NCBI RefSeq assembly: GCF_003076455.1
Contig: NZ_CP020918.1
Coordinates: 186,001-250,000, forward strand
Direction of reading: 5' to 3'
Length of the DNA: 64,000 nt
From: Flavobacterium faecale
GTDB taxonomy: Bacteria > Bacteroidota > Bacteroidia > Flavobacteriales > Flavobacteriaceae
Shown here piece after piece: positions 31,791 to 39,421 of the stretch (position 1 is the stretch's first letter; every line of letters begins with the position of its first letter). The position numbers and the translations under genes are program-made. Below the pieces are notes generated by a model that was given only the letters and a program-made list of their open reading frames with translations, did no database searches and was not told the DNA's origin.

Positions 31791-31830
31791 AAAAAACGTA
31801 AATCATTATATAAATGATTTACGTTTTTTT
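31791..31830 (+). terminator. Strong terminator at the element boundary
   Basis: 17-bp perfect stem (31791-31807 with 31813-31829) and 5-nt loop. The left att repeat begins three bases after it. Confidence 0.92.
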
Positions 31831-31832
31831 TG

Positions 31833-31848
31833 TGTGGCCGCGACAGGG
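31833..31848 (+). repeat. attL: 16-bp tRNA-Arg 3'-end duplication
   Basis: TGTGGCCGCGACAGGG, identical to 39346-39361. After this block the sequence no longer matches the tRNA, so only the crossover segment was duplicated. Confidence 0.88.
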
Positions 31849-31964
31849 ACAAAACCCCCAAATCCGAACGAAACTATAATTTAAAAAAAAACCAATAAAA
31901 CCAATACTTAAGATGGTTTAAAGATTTAAAGTAGTTCGTAACAATTCGAACGAAAACACTAAAA

Positions 31965-31995
31965 GTGTAGCAAAGGTGTAGCAAGAGTGTAACAA
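31965..31995 (+). promoter_or_regulatory. Putative integrase arm-type sites, left end
   Basis: Three direct copies GTGTAGCAA (31965), GTGTAGCAA (31976) and GTGTAACAA (31987) at exact 11-bp intervals, between attL and the integrase promoter. The same motif and period recur at the right end. The last copy abuts the integrase -7 box, so binding could also repress int. Confidence 0.7.
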
Positions 31996-32009: not shown

Positions 32010-32032
32010 ATTTGTTCAAACACTTTATCACT

Positions 32033-33391
32033 ATGGCAACACTAAAATTAAAACTACGTAATGAACTAGATAACTCAAATATTTACGTTTACTACTCTAT
32101 CAGTAAAGACATAAGGCTTTGGAGAAAAACAGGCTTTATTGTAAATTATAAAGATTGGAATGCTAAGAAAGAACAAAGCAAATTATTAGATGAAGATTCT
32201 AAAAAAATAAATATTCGTCTTTCTGAATTAAAAACGCATTTAGAGAAACAACACAATATTGCAATAAGTACAGGGATTGAATTTACAGGCGATTGGTTAC
32301 AAAAGCAAATTGACGTATTCAACAATAAAACACCTGTAGTGGAATTGGACATTCTTACTAACTATATTCAAAAGTATATTGATGATGCACCCTACAAACA
32401 AAATCAAAAAAAAGAACTTGGTTTAAGTGCTGGCCGTGTAGCTAATATAAAGTTATTCAAAAAAACTATTTCAAAATATGAAACCGAAGCACTCAAAGGC
32501 AAAAGCATTATAATTAAAGACATTAATTTACAGTTTGTCGAAAAGTATAAAAGCTGGTTATTTAGTAAAAATTACTCTATTAATTACGTAGGTAAAAATA
32601 TTGCAAACATAAAAACTATTTGTAATGATGCTTATAAAAATGACATTCAAGTTTCTAACCAATTAAAAAATATTAAAGGAGTTTCCGAACGCAAAGAACC
32701 TGAGGAAATAGTCTATTTGTCCGAAGAAGAACAGCAACACATAAAAACTGTCCCCTTATTACGTGAAGCTCTTGAAAACGCTCGAAAATGGCTTTTGTTA
32801 GGGTGCTTAATAGGCCAGCGTGCTGGAGATTTATTGAGCATTACTGAAAATAATATTAAGAACTTAAACGGCATGATGTTAATTGAGATTAAGCAACAAA
32901 AAACAGGCAAACAAGTTGCAGTCCCACTACTACCCGATGCACTCGAAATAATAAAAAACGGTCTACCTTATAAAATATCTTTACCACGATTTAACGAATA
33001 CATAAAAGATATTTGTAAAATAGCTGGATTAACTCAAATGATTAAGGGCAAAAAACCTACCAGCGTAAAAACAGGGAATAAAATAACATCTCTAAAGACT
33101 GGTAAAAAGATTGATGAAAAAGTCAAATTAAATATTGCTGGAACGTACCAAAAATATGAATTAGTAACTTCACATATTTGTCGCAGAAGCTTCGCTACAA
33201 ATTTCTACGGACGTATTCCAACACCTGTTTTGATGAATATAACTGCTCACGGAACGGAAAGAATGTTTTTGTTCTATATCGGCAAAACTACGTATGACAA
33301 TGCCTACCAAATGCTAGAATATTTCAGTAAATTAGCACCTAAAGAAAAAATACCTCAATTGGAGGTAATACATAACACAGGCACTAAATGA
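32033..33391 (+). CDS. int: Tyrosine recombinase/integrase of the element
   Basis: 452 residues from the ATG at 32033 (MATLKLKLRNELDNSN). N-terminal arm-binding domain of the Bacteroidota type (about 1-95), SAM-like core-binding domain (about 105-210), C-terminal catalytic domain. Catalytic residues can be placed: Arg263 (GQRAGDLL), His381 and Arg384 (SHICRRSFATN), His406 (TAHGTERM) and nucleophile Tyr415 (FYIGKT). An insert at about 340-365 (KTGNKITSLKTGKKIDEK) is repetitive. It integrates and excises the element at the tRNA-Arg att site. It overlaps the next gene by 4 bp (ATGA). Confidence 0.94.
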   Translation: MATLKLKLRNELDNSNIYVYYSISKDIRLWRKTGFIVNYKDWNAKKEQSKLLDEDSKKINIRLSELKTHLEKQHNIAISTGIEFTGDWLQKQIDVFNNKTPVVELDILTNYIQKYIDDAPYKQNQKKELGLSAGRVANIKLFKKTISKYETEALKGKSIIIKDINLQFVEKYKSWLFSKNYSINYVGKNIANIKTICNDAYKNDIQVSNQLKNIKGVSERKEPEEIVYLSEEEQQHIKTVPLLREALENARKWLLLGCLIGQRAGDLLSITENNIKNLNGMMLIEIKQQKTGKQVAVPLLPDALEIIKNGLPYKISLPRFNEYIKDICKIAGLTQMIKGKKPTSVKTGNKITSLKTGKKIDEKVKLNIAGTYQKYELVTSHICRRSFATNFYGRIPTPVLMNITAHGTERMFLFYIGKTTYDNAYQMLEYFSKLAPKEKIPQLEVIHNTGTK

Positions 33392-34131
33392 AAAACTTAT
33401 TTAAAAGTCCAACAGTTTACAGTTTATCAGAATATGAAAGTCAATATGACAATTTATTAATAGAACATTTTACAATTAATTCTGATTATGATTTAAAACA
33501 CTTTTTAATGACTGAAATAGGTCTTTACAGAGAACGAATTGAATGTATAAATAACTTTGGAACTATTCCAGAGGATTTTTCTGAGGAGGATTCCAAATTA
33601 ATGAGAAATGTGACCTATACATTAGAAGACAATACAACTGTACAGTTGCAAAACATTTATGTAAGCGATAAAGAGTACTATTGTCAAGTGATTGATTTTG
33701 ATAAAGAAATAATAAAAAAATTAGCTTACCTAGACCACGAAGATACATGGCTGTTTTTGTACAACACTAAATTTTCATTTATTAGAATCATTGAATATTT
33801 AAAACTCAAAAAGAAAGAGATTAATATAAAAACAATTCCAACATTAGCCTTTGACTTAAGCGATTGCACTGCAACCGAAAAAATAATTTATTTACAAAAA
33901 TTAGGTATAATCGATTTTCTAAGAAAAAACAATCATGTTTCAATTAACGGTTTAGCTTCTGCTTTAAGTGCTATTACTGGAGAAAAACCAACAACGATAC
34001 AATCTGCTATAAATCCAATAATCAGCAGGGATGCTGGACAAAAAAACAATCCATTTAACAGTGAAAATACTGTTCAAAAAGTTGAAAAACAGCTTATAAA
34101 AATTGGTTTCAACATAGATGAAACGATTTAG
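33388..34131 (+). CDS. Element protein of unknown function (RteC-like tail)
   Basis: 247 residues, soluble, coupled to int by a 4-bp overlap. The N-terminal half (YSLSEYESQYDNLLIEHF) is of unknown fold. The C-terminal part (TATEKIIYLQKLGIIDFL ... LASALSAITGEKPTTIQSAI ... NTVQKVEKQLIKIGF) resembles a helical module in proteins of Bacteroidota mobile elements, and its layout recalls the C-terminus of the excision regulator RteC. That comparison is from memory and weak. A role in controlling excision is a guess from position. Confidence 0.65.
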   Translation: MKNLFKSPTVYSLSEYESQYDNLLIEHFTINSDYDLKHFLMTEIGLYRERIECINNFGTIPEDFSEEDSKLMRNVTYTLEDNTTVQLQNIYVSDKEYYCQVIDFDKEIIKKLAYLDHEDTWLFLYNTKFSFIRIIEYLKLKKKEINIKTIPTLAFDLSDCTATEKIIYLQKLGIIDFLRKNNHVSINGLASALSAITGEKPTTIQSAINPIISRDAGQKNNPFNSENTVQKVEKQLIKIGFNIDETI

Positions 34132-34187
34132 GGAATCCCTAAAAATACCCTAAGATTTATTTGTACTTCACTTTAACAGTAAGTACA

Positions 34188-34457
34188 ATGACTTCACAAA
34201 TTTTAATTCAAGGCTACACAATAGAGCAACTAGCCGAAGCTCTAAAACCATTGTTTGAAACCCAAACACCATTAAAACAACAGCAACTCGAAAATCCCTT
34301 ACTTACAAGGGATGAAGTTTGCAAATTACTGTCTTTCAATAAAACTTCACTTTGGAAGCACACTAAAAGCGGTAAGCTAAAAAGCTACGGCATAGGAAAC
34401 AAAGTATATTACAAGCGTTCTGAAGTATTGGAAGCCGTGAAACCTATTAATCATTAG
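34188..34457 (+). CDS. Excisionase-like helix-turn-helix protein
   Basis: 89 residues from the ATG at 34188; the frame from 34161 has no better start. The C-terminal half is an HTH_17/MerR-like winged helix: LLTRDEVCKLLSFNKTSLWK then SGKLKSYGIGNKVYYKRSEVLEA. Such proteins in Bacteroidota elements act as recombination directionality factors or local regulators. Gene order int - unknown - HTH supports that. Confidence 0.82.
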   Translation: MTSQILIQGYTIEQLAEALKPLFETQTPLKQQQLENPLLTRDEVCKLLSFNKTSLWKHTKSGKLKSYGIGNKVYYKRSEVLEAVKPINH

Positions 34458-34461
34458 CATT

Positions 34462-34791
34462 ATGAAAAATAGAAATACACAGGCACAACAGTACATCGAT
34501 TATGTAAGAACCAGCGTTTTGAAATTTTACATTAGTGATTATTTGGTTTTTAAAAATCTTCCTGAAACGGTTATTTTCTACAAAGCACTAAAAGTGCAAC
34601 CAGTCACAAAGAAAGCAATTTGCACCGCCTTTGATTTAAACATTGAGGCAATGTGTAGGTACAAACGCCAACTCGAGAAAGAAGGTTTGCTAGAGCAGTC
34701 AGATAAAAAGGAAATTTGTAAATACACAGGACACCTTGCACATTTATTGACCACCAATACATTTTTATTCAAAGTAAATAAAAGAGAATAG
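34462..34791 (+). CDS. Small winged-helix-like element protein
   Basis: 109 residues, basic. A central VTKKAICTAFDLNIEAMCRYKRQLEKEGLL reads (in parts) as a helix-turn-helix plus recognition helix. It lies 4 bp after the excisionase-like gene and 3 bp before the polymerase-like gene, so the three are cotranscribed. Likely a DNA-binding accessory for replication or regulation; no family recognised. Confidence 0.7.
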   Translation: MKNRNTQAQQYIDYVRTSVLKFYISDYLVFKNLPETVIFYKALKVQPVTKKAICTAFDLNIEAMCRYKRQLEKEGLLEQSDKKEICKYTGHLAHLLTTNTFLFKVNKRE

Positions 34792-34794
34792 GAA

Positions 34795-37197
34795 ATGGAC
34801 ACGGCAACTACACCAGCCGTGCCAAAAACCTATATTGCTGAATGGATTAAGTTAGATTTTTTCAATAATTCTAATTTAAAAACCGATATACAAAATCGTA
34901 TTTCGAATAATATCGAAGTTGAATTTATTACCTCTTTACAGGATATGAAAGGCGATAATAAAGACAACTTTGGTATTCCATTTTCAGACATTACACTTTT
35001 GGCAATGGCTTACTTTTATTCTGAGATATTCACGGATAAAATAAAAGATGAATATTACACGCTAGAAATGGTGAAAGGTTTTTTTGATGCAAATAACTTT
35101 ACACCATACACCGCAATTCACGAAATAGATGTAGTTTTTGTTTCAATGAAAGACGCACCTTATTTTAAACATTGCTGGTTAATTATACAAAGTGCATGGT
35201 TCTTTAATTCGTCGTATTTTGGACACCACCAGCATATTGACTACGTGAACCACTACATAAGCACAGGCGAAAAGCTACTAATTGAGAACTATAATTTTGA
35301 TCGAAATTATTTAGAAAAAAAATATGGTGACATTGACAGCAGAAAAAGCAAACGCATTCCAATAAATGGATTCACACTAGTAAACCAATGGTATTATGGA
35401 ATATTATTTTTAATATGTAGTGAACTAAAGCTTTCAACAAAACATTTTGTTATATCAACAAAACATGATAGAATTTACAATCCTTTAGTTAAAACTTCCC
35501 GACAATTGAGAATGTTAGCACCATTTAAAATTATCGAATGTGATATTAAAAGCGCCTTCCCTACTTTCTTAGACATAGAAGCTGGAGCAACCTTAAAAGA
35601 CCATGTTTATAACAATCTTATGAAAGCTAAAAAAATAACGAGAGGAGAAGCAAAAATTTTATTTAACAGCGTTTGTAATAGTGGAAAATACAAAAGCATA
35701 AAAGAAACAACCGCTTTTTTTATGGATTGCGGTTATACACCTGAACAATGTAAAATACTTATATCATTGACACATGACAGTAACAGAAAATTTATTTTTG
35801 CTATGACAGAATACGAATCATTGGCAATTAACAATTTTGCAACAATGAATGATTTAAAACATGGTGCAAGGCTTCACGATGCGATTATATTTATAGATGA
35901 TAAAAACAGACCTCAAATATTACAAGTTCCACCAAATTGTGACTTTGGAATTAAAGAACTAAACCGCCCAATTCTAAAAGAATATTTTAAAGTAAGTAAT
36001 AAAAGATTAAATTTTGCTTACATCAATTCTATTCCTAGAGGTTTAAATTTGATTAGCAAACTTGATTTTGCAAAACCTGAAGTAAAAGGAATTTCTAACG
36101 GTTTTAAGTTCTACAAATCAAAGTTTGAATACATAAGCGCAAGCTTTAATTTAAATGAATATAATATTGATTACTACCAATTTATAGGCAAGTGTACTAT
36201 TATGTTTAATACTTTGCTAGCTCTCAATAATAGCAGTTACTTAAACCCTGTTCATAGATTTTTGATACTACGCCATATTAGACAACATTCAAATTATATT
36301 TTTAATGTCCGTGCCTTACAATCAAAATTTAAAGCCATAAATCCTTCTTTGATAATATCAAAAAGTAGAGATTATGATATAACTGAAAACATGACTTTTA
36401 AAAAGAAAATTGACTTTCTCAATGCTATGAATGAAGCAAAAAAGCTAGTAACAATTAATTGCAATTATTTAGAATTATTTGATTTGATGCTAGAGCGATT
36501 AACCAACAATGATTTTTCATACATTGATAATACAGTATTTACAGGGCATAAAAAAAACAATTTATTGAGCTATGCAATAGTAAGAACATTTAATATTTTA
36601 TGCACAGGAAGAAGCAGAACCAAACGAAAAACAGTTAAGAGTGAACCTCTTTATTTAGCACCTATAAAGAGACTCACTCTAAAGTCAATATCGTTAAAAA
36701 AACAACAGCAAAACGCTTTTATAAAGAAAGGAATTGCAAAATATGAAAAAGAGTTAATAGCCTTGAATAAGTTAGTTTGTAACCGAGAGAAAGCAAAACA
36801 TTTATTTATAATTCTTTGCGATGTTGCTGGACAAAATACTGATTTAAATATCAAAAAGGATGCACAAATAATCACAGAATTAAAAATTGATTTATTGCGG
36901 TTAATTGACAAAACAGAATATTTGGATTGTAGCGCTGGAGAAATCGAATTTGATTCAAGATACAAATTCATTAAACCGAAAGAAATTCCAGTAATTTCAG
37001 ATATAGAAAATATATTTGAAACTGATTTAAGCAACAGTATTTTTAATCAAATAGACATAGAAGAAGCAAACGATAGAGGGGAAACGTTCTTTAATGAATA
37101 TTTAAAATTTCACGGATTAGAGAAGGTTTGTAAGACAGCTATATTAAGCGAAAAGCCAATAGAAAAATATAAACTTCCTGAAATTAATTTTGATTAA
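34795..37197 (+). CDS. Large element protein with polymerase-like palm motifs
   Basis: 800 residues with no signal peptide or membrane helix. Three ordered motifs recall family A DNA polymerases. Motif A-like: IIECDIKSAFPTF with Asp250. O-helix-like: RGEAKILFNSVCNSG with Arg283 and Lys287 in the R-xxx-K spacing of Pol I and Asn291 nearby. Motif C-like: ARLHDAIIFIDD with His361-Asp362. Spacing between motifs is shorter than in E. coli Pol I. No exonuclease or primase motifs were seen; about 240 residues precede the motifs and 430 follow. It may replicate the excised element. The assignment is an inference and could be wrong; the alternative is a replication initiator of unknown fold. Confidence 0.6.
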   Translation: MDTATTPAVPKTYIAEWIKLDFFNNSNLKTDIQNRISNNIEVEFITSLQDMKGDNKDNFGIPFSDITLLAMAYFYSEIFTDKIKDEYYTLEMVKGFFDANNFTPYTAIHEIDVVFVSMKDAPYFKHCWLIIQSAWFFNSSYFGHHQHIDYVNHYISTGEKLLIENYNFDRNYLEKKYGDIDSRKSKRIPINGFTLVNQWYYGILFLICSELKLSTKHFVISTKHDRIYNPLVKTSRQLRMLAPFKIIECDIKSAFPTFLDIEAGATLKDHVYNNLMKAKKITRGEAKILFNSVCNSGKYKSIKETTAFFMDCGYTPEQCKILISLTHDSNRKFIFAMTEYESLAINNFATMNDLKHGARLHDAIIFIDDKNRPQILQVPPNCDFGIKELNRPILKEYFKVSNKRLNFAYINSIPRGLNLISKLDFAKPEVKGISNGFKFYKSKFEYISASFNLNEYNIDYYQFIGKCTIMFNTLLALNNSSYLNPVHRFLILRHIRQHSNYIFNVRALQSKFKAINPSLIISKSRDYDITENMTFKKKIDFLNAMNEAKKLVTINCNYLELFDLMLERLTNNDFSYIDNTVFTGHKKNNLLSYAIVRTFNILCTGRSRTKRKTVKSEPLYLAPIKRLTLKSISLKKQQQNAFIKKGIAKYEKELIALNKLVCNREKAKHLFIILCDVAGQNTDLNIKKDAQIITELKIDLLRLIDKTEYLDCSAGEIEFDSRYKFIKPKEIPVISDIENIFETDLSNSIFNQIDIEEANDRGETFFNEYLKFHGLEKVCKTAILSEKPIEKYKLPEINFD

Positions 37198-37277: not shown

Positions 37278-37844
37278 ATGAAAAAAGTATTAATGCTATT
37301 CCTTTTATTGATTACTGGATTAATAACTGCACAGGAAACAGAATTTAAATTTACAAAAGATGGATTTACAGATTATGTTGTAGGGACTATTCCAAATAAA
37401 ACTGCAAATGAATTGTATAAAAAAGCACTAGATTGGGTTTCTGTAACTTATAACAATCCTAAAGAAGTAATTAAAGCACAAATTGAAAATGACTACATAA
37501 GGATTGAAGGTAGTGAATCAAATATGCTTTGTATTAAAACACTTGGAATGATGAACTGCAGTAATGGAAGATACCAAATTGAAATATCATTTAAAGACGG
37601 TAAATATAAGTTTGATGTAATAAAACTTGAACAGTATCTTAAACCATCACAATATTCAGTTATAAGTGGCTGGACTGAAGTAGGAATAGGACTTACCAAC
37701 CCCTATTATAAAGAAAACGGTGACTTAAGAAGTATTTATAAATTATACCCTGAGGCAATTGAAACTAAATTTAATAATTTAAACACATCATTAAATGAAT
37801 TTTTAAAAAGTGATAATATTCCAAGTAAAAAAAGTGAATGGTAA
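37278..37844 (+). CDS. Secreted DUF4468-type protein
   Basis: 188 residues with a signal peptide (MKKVLMLFLLLITGLITAQ). The mature part has the DUF4468 look, a TBP-like alpha/beta fold: FTKDGFTDYVVGTIPNKTANELYKKALDWV, read in parts, then SFKDGKYKFDVIKLEQY. Proteins of this family are common in Bacteroidetes and their role is unknown. Here it is probable cargo of the element. Confidence 0.78.
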   Translation: MKKVLMLFLLLITGLITAQETEFKFTKDGFTDYVVGTIPNKTANELYKKALDWVSVTYNNPKEVIKAQIENDYIRIEGSESNMLCIKTLGMMNCSNGRYQIEISFKDGKYKFDVIKLEQYLKPSQYSVISGWTEVGIGLTNPYYKENGDLRSIYKLYPEAIETKFNNLNTSLNEFLKSDNIPSKKSEW

Positions 37845-38034: not shown

Positions 38035-38616
38035 ATGCCAAGACCAGCAAATTACAATAAAAAAGTTGATGATTGTTTGACAATAAGCACGACCAAATTA
38101 AAAGAATGGGAATATTTAAAAAGAGGCTCTAAGGCGGGCATTATTAGCTGGAGCAGAAACGGAGATACACATTCTAAAATAAATATCGAAGTTAATTTCT
38201 TAGAATTTGAAAAACACATTATCTTAAATTATAATGTAAATGGAGAACCCAAAAACTACAAAATAAAAATTATCGAAGTTCCTTCAAATTTAGGTAAAGG
38301 ATATTTATACTATTTTAAATGCCCAATAACACATAAACTTTGCAGAAAGCTATATTTAGATAGTGGAATGTTTTTGCACCGTACAGCGTTTAATATGATA
38401 TACGCAAAGCAAACGGAATCTAAGAAGTGGAGAAGCTTAACAGCCGTATTTGATAAAGCCTTTGTTCCTGATGCAGTCTACCAACAACGATACAAAAAAT
38501 ACTTTAAAACACATTATAACGGAATACCAACCAAAAGGTATTTAAAATTAGAACAACGGATAAGAACGGCAGATAATTACCCAGCAGGAACAATTGAAAG
38601 ATTAATGATGATGTAA
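38035..38616 (+). CDS. Element protein of unknown function
   Basis: 193 residues, basic, soluble. It contains FKCPITHKLCRKLYL, with two Cys and a His that could bind metal, and YAKQTESKKWRSL followed by a basic C-terminus (PTKRYLKLEQRIRTADNYP). The composition suggests nucleic-acid binding. No family was recognised. It is a single gene between two terminators, with its own upstream region. Confidence 0.68.
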   Translation: MPRPANYNKKVDDCLTISTTKLKEWEYLKRGSKAGIISWSRNGDTHSKINIEVNFLEFEKHIILNYNVNGEPKNYKIKIIEVPSNLGKGYLYYFKCPITHKLCRKLYLDSGMFLHRTAFNMIYAKQTESKKWRSLTAVFDKAFVPDAVYQQRYKKYFKTHYNGIPTKRYLKLEQRIRTADNYPAGTIERLMMM

Positions 38617-39292: not shown

Positions 39293-39312
39293 GTGTAGCA
39301 AATGCGTAGCAA
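39293..39312 (+). promoter_or_regulatory. Putative integrase arm-type sites, right end
   Basis: GTGTAGCAA (39293) and GCGTAGCAA (39304), spaced by 11 bp and in the same orientation as the left-end set, 34 bp before the att repeat. Confidence 0.68.
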
Positions 39313-39345
39313 AATCTACGTTAAGCCTATTAAATAGGCACTTTT

Positions 39346-39361
39346 TGTGGCCGCGACAGGG
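39346..39361 (+). repeat. attR: 16-bp repeat within tRNA-Arg 3' end
   Basis: TGTGGCCGCGACAGGG; covers the acceptor 3' strand and the start of the T stem of the intact tRNA gene. Confidence 0.88.
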
Positions 39362-39421
39362 TTCGAACCTGCAACCCTCAGAGTCGAAATCTGATATTCT
39401 ATCCAGTTGAACTACACAGCC
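39348..39421 (-). tRNA. tRNA-Arg (anticodon TCG)
   Basis: On the minus strand a 74-nt cloverleaf can be drawn: acceptor GGCTGTG with CGCGGCC (with G-U pairs) and discriminator A, D arm with GTTCAACTGGATAGAAT, anticodon stem TCAGA/TCTGA with loop TTTCGAC giving TCG, and T arm GCAGG TTCGAAC CCTGT. CCA is not encoded. The gene is intact because the integrated element supplied an identical 3' end. Confidence 0.93.

Follow-up and report, generated by a model that had tools for sequence, protein, structure and literature searches.

Introduction

Compact polymerases carried by mobile elements entered the literature in 2008 with the definition of the TV-Pols, which were predicted to be primase-polymerases (Iyer, Abhiman and Aravind, 2008; PMC2579912). 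They have two antiparallel thumb helices, a β-hairpin with an invariant Arg, and a conserved fingers Asp together with RxxxK, and they include members from Bacteroidetes (PMC2579912). Rice (2023; PMC10061031), citing Bebel (2020; PMC7581432), reports primase activity for CcPol-MP, a PolA-SSB primase complex of SCCmec.

Here we analyse a 64,000-nucleotide stretch of the Flavobacterium faecale genome (hereafter the window), in which a small integrative element encodes an 800-residue protein, P0001. With a probability of roughly 0.8, we read P0001 as the polymerase that replicates this 7.5-kb element, which is integrated at the 3′ end of a tRNA-Arg gene, residues 136–391 of the protein being a minimal family A-like core. 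Features in common with CcPol-MP are a catalytic core of family A type, an association with helicases and residence on a small integrative element that also encodes a site-specific recombinase; however, CcPol is described as close to the housekeeping Pol I whereas P0001 is missed by Pol I models, an OB-fold SSB partner is present there but not evident here, and the mostly large serine recombinases and rlmH of those elements contrast with a tyrosine integrase and a tRNA target (PMC10061031). Like pipolins, the element encodes its own DNA polymerase, but piPolB is assigned to family B where Rice (2023; PMC10061031) mentions it, whereas the fold matches listed for P0001 belong to family A.

Results

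An integrative element at a tRNA-Arg gene

The host genome is a single contig of 4.62 Mb. The element spans about 7.5 kb and is bounded by 33-nt repeats at 31829–31861 and 39342–39374, which are 79% identical and share a 16-nt identical core. Its features, in window coordinates, are as follows.

31829..31861, no strand: left attachment repeat, a partial copy of the tRNA-Arg 3′ end (16 identical bases, 31833–31848)
31965..31995, no strand: two tandem GTGTAGCAA-type repeats (repeat comparison)
32012..33391, +: tyrosine integrase, 459 aa (Phage_int_SAM_5, E 2.1e-10; Phage_integrase, E 1.3e-7)
33388..34131, +: orf247, overlapping the integrase stop (homologues in loci L005 and L086)
34161..34457, +: 98-aa HTH_17 protein, excisionase-like (HTH_17, E 4.6e-11; excisionase models)
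34462..34791, +: orf109, 109 aa, possible winged-helix protein (weak matches, several to helix-turn-helix models)
34795..37197, +: 800-aa P0001 with a family A-like polymerase core (AF2 model, PDB comparisons, invariant residues)
37278..37844, +: DUF4468 protein, likely cargo (PF14730, E 2.5e-7)
38035..38616, +: orf193, placed towards the tRNA end in several related elements (homologues at related loci)
39293..39312, no strand: third GTGTAGCAA-type copy, near the other element end (repeat comparison)
39342..39374, no strand: right attachment repeat, 3′ end of the intact tRNA (repeat comparison)
39347..39421, −: tRNA-Arg (tcg), the integration target (ARAGORN)

From integrase to polymerase, neighbouring genes overlap by 4 nt or lie 3–29 nt apart. 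An earlier note on this DNA had proposed cotranscription of the polymerase gene with two small DNA-binding proteins, which is plausible because the HTH gene and orf109 are separated by 4 nt, and orf109 and the polymerase gene by 3 nt; one of the two does encode an HTH_17 protein, but 'DNA-binding' is not firm for orf109, since its matches are weak. No Pfam, PHROGs or NCBIfam family matched orf247 at E ≤ 0.05, and its position varies among elements. The GTGTAGCAA-type repeats near both ends are possible integrase arm sites. A close homologue of the DUF4468 protein (E 1e-93) lies beyond orf193 at L082:5091–5684 (−), in an element whose polymerase core is SF3-fused (below).

Of 29 loci fetched from other genomes, 19 were examined; all 19 have an intact tRNA with YqeY and FtsZ next in order, and the ~1.5 kb on either side gave no integrase match. 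An empty-site proof was dropped: none of these 19 loci has the left-flank gene next to the tRNA, and the case for integration therefore rests on the attachment repeats and the intact tRNA. Among carrier contigs, 20 of the 90 listed under 20 kb measure 6.2–7.1 kb, where a fitted power law predicts 6.2; these are perhaps excised circles, a hint and no more because the bin was chosen after looking.

Three motifs of P0001 are invariant in its close family

Translation of 34795–37197 (+) yields the 800 residues of P0001, with D250 in CDIKSAFPTF, R283-xxx-K287 in RGEAKILFNSVCNSG and H361-D362 in LHDAIIFID, all at the residues given in the earlier note, which had read them as motif A, O-helix and motif C of Pol I with compressed spacing. 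The spacing is indeed short, D250 and D362 being 112 residues apart, less than in Pol I, T7 gp5 or Pol theta. A counterpart in Flavobacterium sp. 7A is 97% identical.

A protein database search in which 8000 candidates were scored found 192 relatives at E ≤ 0.001, and a second database search, with an alignment, found 207 at E ≤ 0.01; the best 120 listed from each are named hypothetical or uncharacterized. The predicted conservation of D250, K287 and D362 was checked in the close-family alignment, where each residue is present in 121/121 sequences (the window protein counted among them), as are R283 and H361, while residue 363 is Ala or Ser in every row. In a wider core alignment of 139 rows (these 121, 11 SF3-fused proteins and seven other distant ones, with P0107 left out), D250, H361 and D362 are again invariant (139/139), together with R226, R239, P243, Y272, N295 and E341. 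R283, A286 and K287 occur in 128/139, the remaining 11 rows being gaps that all belong to the SF3-fused clade, where the fingers segment lacks some 10 residues; in a different alignment of 20 cores, one of the clade's Lys residues falls in the K287 column (Lys in 20/20). The motif pattern by itself is weak evidence: among 170 stop-to-stop ORFs of at least 300 aa, drawn from the window and 23 loci all picked for holding relatives, it matched 18, two of them non-relatives and 16 relatives, among which L046 is a weak one.

The predicted core resembles family A polymerases

Structure prediction and a fold search, the check proposed in the earlier note, found thumb, palm and fingers elements matching family A polymerases.

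35200..35967, +: polymerase core, residues 136–391 (AF2 model, PDB comparison)
within the core (AF2 model): helices 170–185 and 194–210, the putative thumb; hairpin 221–228 with R226
within the core (AF2 model): palm strand with D250; fingers helix 283–295 with R283 and K287; palm hairpin with H361-D362
35977..37194, +: C-terminal half, residues 395–800, mixed and then long-helical

In the AF2 model, D250 lies on strand 246–251, H361-D362 occupy the turn between strands 358–360 and 363–367, and RxxxK stands at the start of the predicted fingers helix, as in the O-helix of family A. The 50 matches listed in each PDB structure comparison were all family A polymerases, with modest absolute scores and 9–14% identity over structurally aligned residues. 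Klenow polymerase has D705, R754, K758 and D882 in its active site, the putative counterparts of D250, R283, K287 and D362. Pol I has the consensus SQIE in motif A and HDE in motif C, and both glutamates are absent from P0001 (CDIKSAFPTF, LHDAII). Predicted fold and catalytic motif order align P0001 with Pol I, T7 gp5 and Pol theta (PF00476), but it differs from them in lacking these glutamates, a PF00476 match and a recognised exonuclease domain, and in its shorter spacing.

Sequence and profile searches gave no connection of P0001 to Pol I or T7 polymerase. P0001 matched no family in Pfam, PHROGs or NCBIfam at E ≤ 1, PF00476 (DNA_pol_A) included, and nothing among PDB sequences at E ≤ 10, and the core profile gave no lead there either; tblastn of P0001 in phages and plasmids, and searches of IMG/VR viral contigs with A1, A4 and L046, were likewise fruitless. 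In hhalign, the core against Pol I plus T7 polymerase (21 of 31 fetched Pol I sequences, the 10 missed by a motif filter being left out) reached 9% with a score of 30.1, compared to 12.0–18.4 for two reversed and 10 column-shuffled controls, a result not counted as support because the alignment was out of register. No match was obtained against single T7 polymerase, T7 RNAP or Ma-LMM01 gp030.

The failed profile–profile match to Pol I would fit a palm-fold polymerase outside family A, either family B-like or from a new palm family, whose likeness to family A arose by convergence in a small helical-palm arrangement. Family B polymerases carry the motifs DxxSLYPS and KxxxNSxYG, which DIKSAFPTF and K287-xxx-N291-S of P0001 resemble. 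Yet the order of RxxxK, Arg hairpin and HD turn is consistent with family A, and every match listed in the PDB comparisons is family A, so that we consider this explanation unlikely. A family B reading from the motifs alone was dropped for want of fold support, and an AEP primase reading of E248-x-D250 because E248 is variable in the distant set. The family A-like assignment put forward in the earlier note, with its order of motif A, O-helix and motif C, is supported by the predicted structure together with the invariant residues, the motif order and the genomic context.

A candidate TV-Pol-like variant

The minimal thumb, Arg hairpin, two-Asp palm and RxxxK fingers that define TV-Pols (PMC2579912) are also present in the P0001 model, with helices 170–185 and 194–210 as the predicted thumb and hairpin 221–228 bearing R226, invariant in 139/139 rows. 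Further points of likeness are a location on integrase- or resolvase-bearing mobile elements and the lack of nuclease domains (PMC2579912). The C-terminal fusion of some TV-Pols to a D5-type helicase may have a parallel in a clade of P0001 relatives fused to an SF3-like ATPase. In contrast to TV-Pols, a fingers Asp is not clearly conserved among P0001 relatives: D269 occurs in 114/121 close-family rows, one of the seven other distant rows and none of the nine letters visible in the 11 SF3-fused rows, the equivalent column being uncertain. The 400-residue C-terminal half and the SF2-type fusions find no mention in the 2008 main text (PMC2579912).

One candidate TV-Pol, Ma-LMM01 gp030, was picked by motif and neighbours and gave no sequence match; it is a hypothetical protein (L095:22749–24266, −) that adjoins transposase genes and, by motifs and position, is probably the TV-Pol mentioned by Iyer et al. 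(2008). Two proteins of 520–525 aa from another Bacteroidota family, L046:346–1905 (found through the same core profile) and L113 (found by similarity to L046), have similar fingers and motif C regions; the stretch that follows a possible motif A is longer in them, and L113 has QD where HD would stand. About 3 kb away from L046 there is a gene for a serine recombinase. L046 plus L113 scored 91% against the core, 0.4% against gp030 and 1.6% against Pol I, and from their sequences could form a bridge to the TV-Pols. P0001 is best seen as a family A-like minimal polymerase and a candidate TV-Pol-like variant, a membership that sequence leaves unproven. The undescribed polymerase lineage suggested in the earlier note holds at subfamily level at most, because compact polymerases of TV-Pol type on mobile elements have been known since 2008. 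No Flavobacterium version was described in the titles and abstract openings of the open papers found, which weighs little.

One core, several helicase arrangements

Against PDB structures, no family stands out for the C-terminal half of P0001, which does not demonstrate a new fold, and P0001 matched no helicase model in Pfam, PHROGs or NCBIfam. A Walker A pattern was negative for a P-loop in 122/122 P0001-type proteins, a result given no weight because the pattern also misses the SF3 variant.

Searches of genomes at genus, family and phylum level uncovered relatives that have the core alone in common with P0001. Matches occurred in 23 of 398 genus genomes by full-length alignment search (some partial), and by core profile search in 7 of 397 family genomes and 4 of 395 phylum genomes, the own genome being included in each count. 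Among these relatives, the 731-aa L022 shares the core and matches no Pfam family, and L023 has a C-terminal SF2-type helicase region (phage helicases, E down to 3e-25; DEAD, E 6.6e-4, below its cut-off). L024–L026, L042 and L043 carry the core at the C-terminus, preceded by a region without a significant model match that we read as helicase-like. Eleven (L027–L032, L035 and L038–L041) bear a C-terminal SF3-like ATPase; phrog_28855, of unknown function, was present in all six of the SF3-fused proteins scanned, and a Salinibacter protein is named 'primase-helicase family protein'. In 12 distant relatives the two Asp residues are 103–117 residues apart. A midpoint-rooted core tree of 30 rows places P0001, the SF3-fused type and the type with an N-terminal helicase-like region each on one side of a supported branch.

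With the SF3 type as query, 303 proteins were recovered. In the best 120 of these, residues equivalent to the two Asp, the His and one fingers Lys are present in 120/120, as are the Walker A Lys, two Walker B Asp and the sensor Asn, and an Arg is conserved; the 183 beyond them may match by the helicase part alone. The SF3-type profile gave scattered matches only among PDB sequences (E 0.42 or worse).

A shared backbone with variable genes

Among 10 close loci, homologues of the HTH gene were found at all 10, of the integrase at eight, of orf193 at five and of orf109 at three, with a tRNA within the examined stretch at three. For 14 distant loci, all but L090 having the core at E ≤ 1e-3, the counts were seven for the integrase, seven for the HTH gene, four for orf109 and three for orf193, and a tRNA was present at eight. 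Pfam identified further integrases at L084 and L091, and one at L087 fell below the cut-off; L082:12798–14105 was rejected as an integrase candidate, being a GTPase. In a phmmer scan, the polymerase core was the only match to window genes at L087, L088 and L089.

The complete order (integrase, variable gene, HTH gene, orf109, polymerase, optional cargo, orf193, tRNA) is found at L081, with an SF3-fused core, and at L085, with a core of the 731-aa type. The same backbone thus surrounds different core types, and where it is shared the polymerase core is constant and the helicase variable. Between polymerase and orf193, L009 carries a type IIG restriction-methylation enzyme (L009:10484–14098) and L007 an HD-CE plus HATPase protein (L007:11173–13848), which suggests a slot for anti-phage cargo. 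A type I restriction gene of L011 may lie outside that locus's element.

Discussion

From the conservation, predicted fold and context of P0001, we infer how the element would work. The integrase and the excisionase-like protein would release it as a circle, which the polymerase would then copy or prime. The two-helix thumb and Arg-bearing hairpin would hold template and primer, D250 and D362 would bind two catalytic metals, as their invariance and the predicted fold suggest, and R283 and K287, where the fingers helix begins, would bind the incoming triphosphate, as in Pol I. In some relatives the polypeptide itself includes an SF3-like or SF2-like helicase; the window version has no recognised helicase of its own and would therefore use a host enzyme.

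The analogy with TV-Pol and CcPol makes a priming role for P0001 plausible, and there is a nearly even chance that the protein is mainly the element's primase, a PrimPol by function that would lay short primers on single-stranded DNA and leave bulk synthesis to host polymerases. TV-Pols are predicted to be primases, the CcPol-MP complex is reported to be one (PMC2579912; PMC10061031), and the SF3-fused palm lies N-terminal to an ATPase of the primase-helicase type, often the place of a primase (Iyer et al., 2008; PMC2579912). Against this, the weak matches of orf109 include several to helix-turn-helix models and none to SSB, so that a single-stranded DNA-binding partner as in CcPol is not evident.

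The defence-type cargo of two related elements, and the RRM-like pseudo-polymerases with lost active sites noted on some SCC-like elements by Rice (2023; PMC10061031), raise the question of whether P0001 is a palm protein that has lost catalysis or plays no part in replication, for instance a regulator or defence protein carried by the element. This is very improbable, given that D250, H361 and D362 are kept in every row of the wider alignment and their equivalents in all of the best 120 of 303 SF3-type proteins, that the polymerase gene sits in the integrase–HTH backbone while variable genes lie downstream, and that no PADLOC model matched at E ≤ 0.01.

With the replication polymerase reading retained for P0001, we tentatively propose, at odds somewhat below even, a distinct, unannotated, minimal family A-like lineage, so far of Flavobacteriaceae, that serves as a small-element replicase. 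Its core would be paired with an SF3-like helicase, an SF2-like one or none (a C-terminal half of unrecognised fold), the unwinding module being swapped and the polymerase kept, and the window form may prime and copy alone. Such a lineage, large and unannotated (207 and 303 database matches), would enlarge the small set of mobile-element polymerases that do not belong to the standard primase and polymerase families, and its 103–117 residues between catalytic Asp would offer a natural test of the minimum family A-like active site and of priming ability. In Flavobacteriaceae, the polymerase core would also mark a class of small elements, of which at least two bear cargo of anti-phage type.
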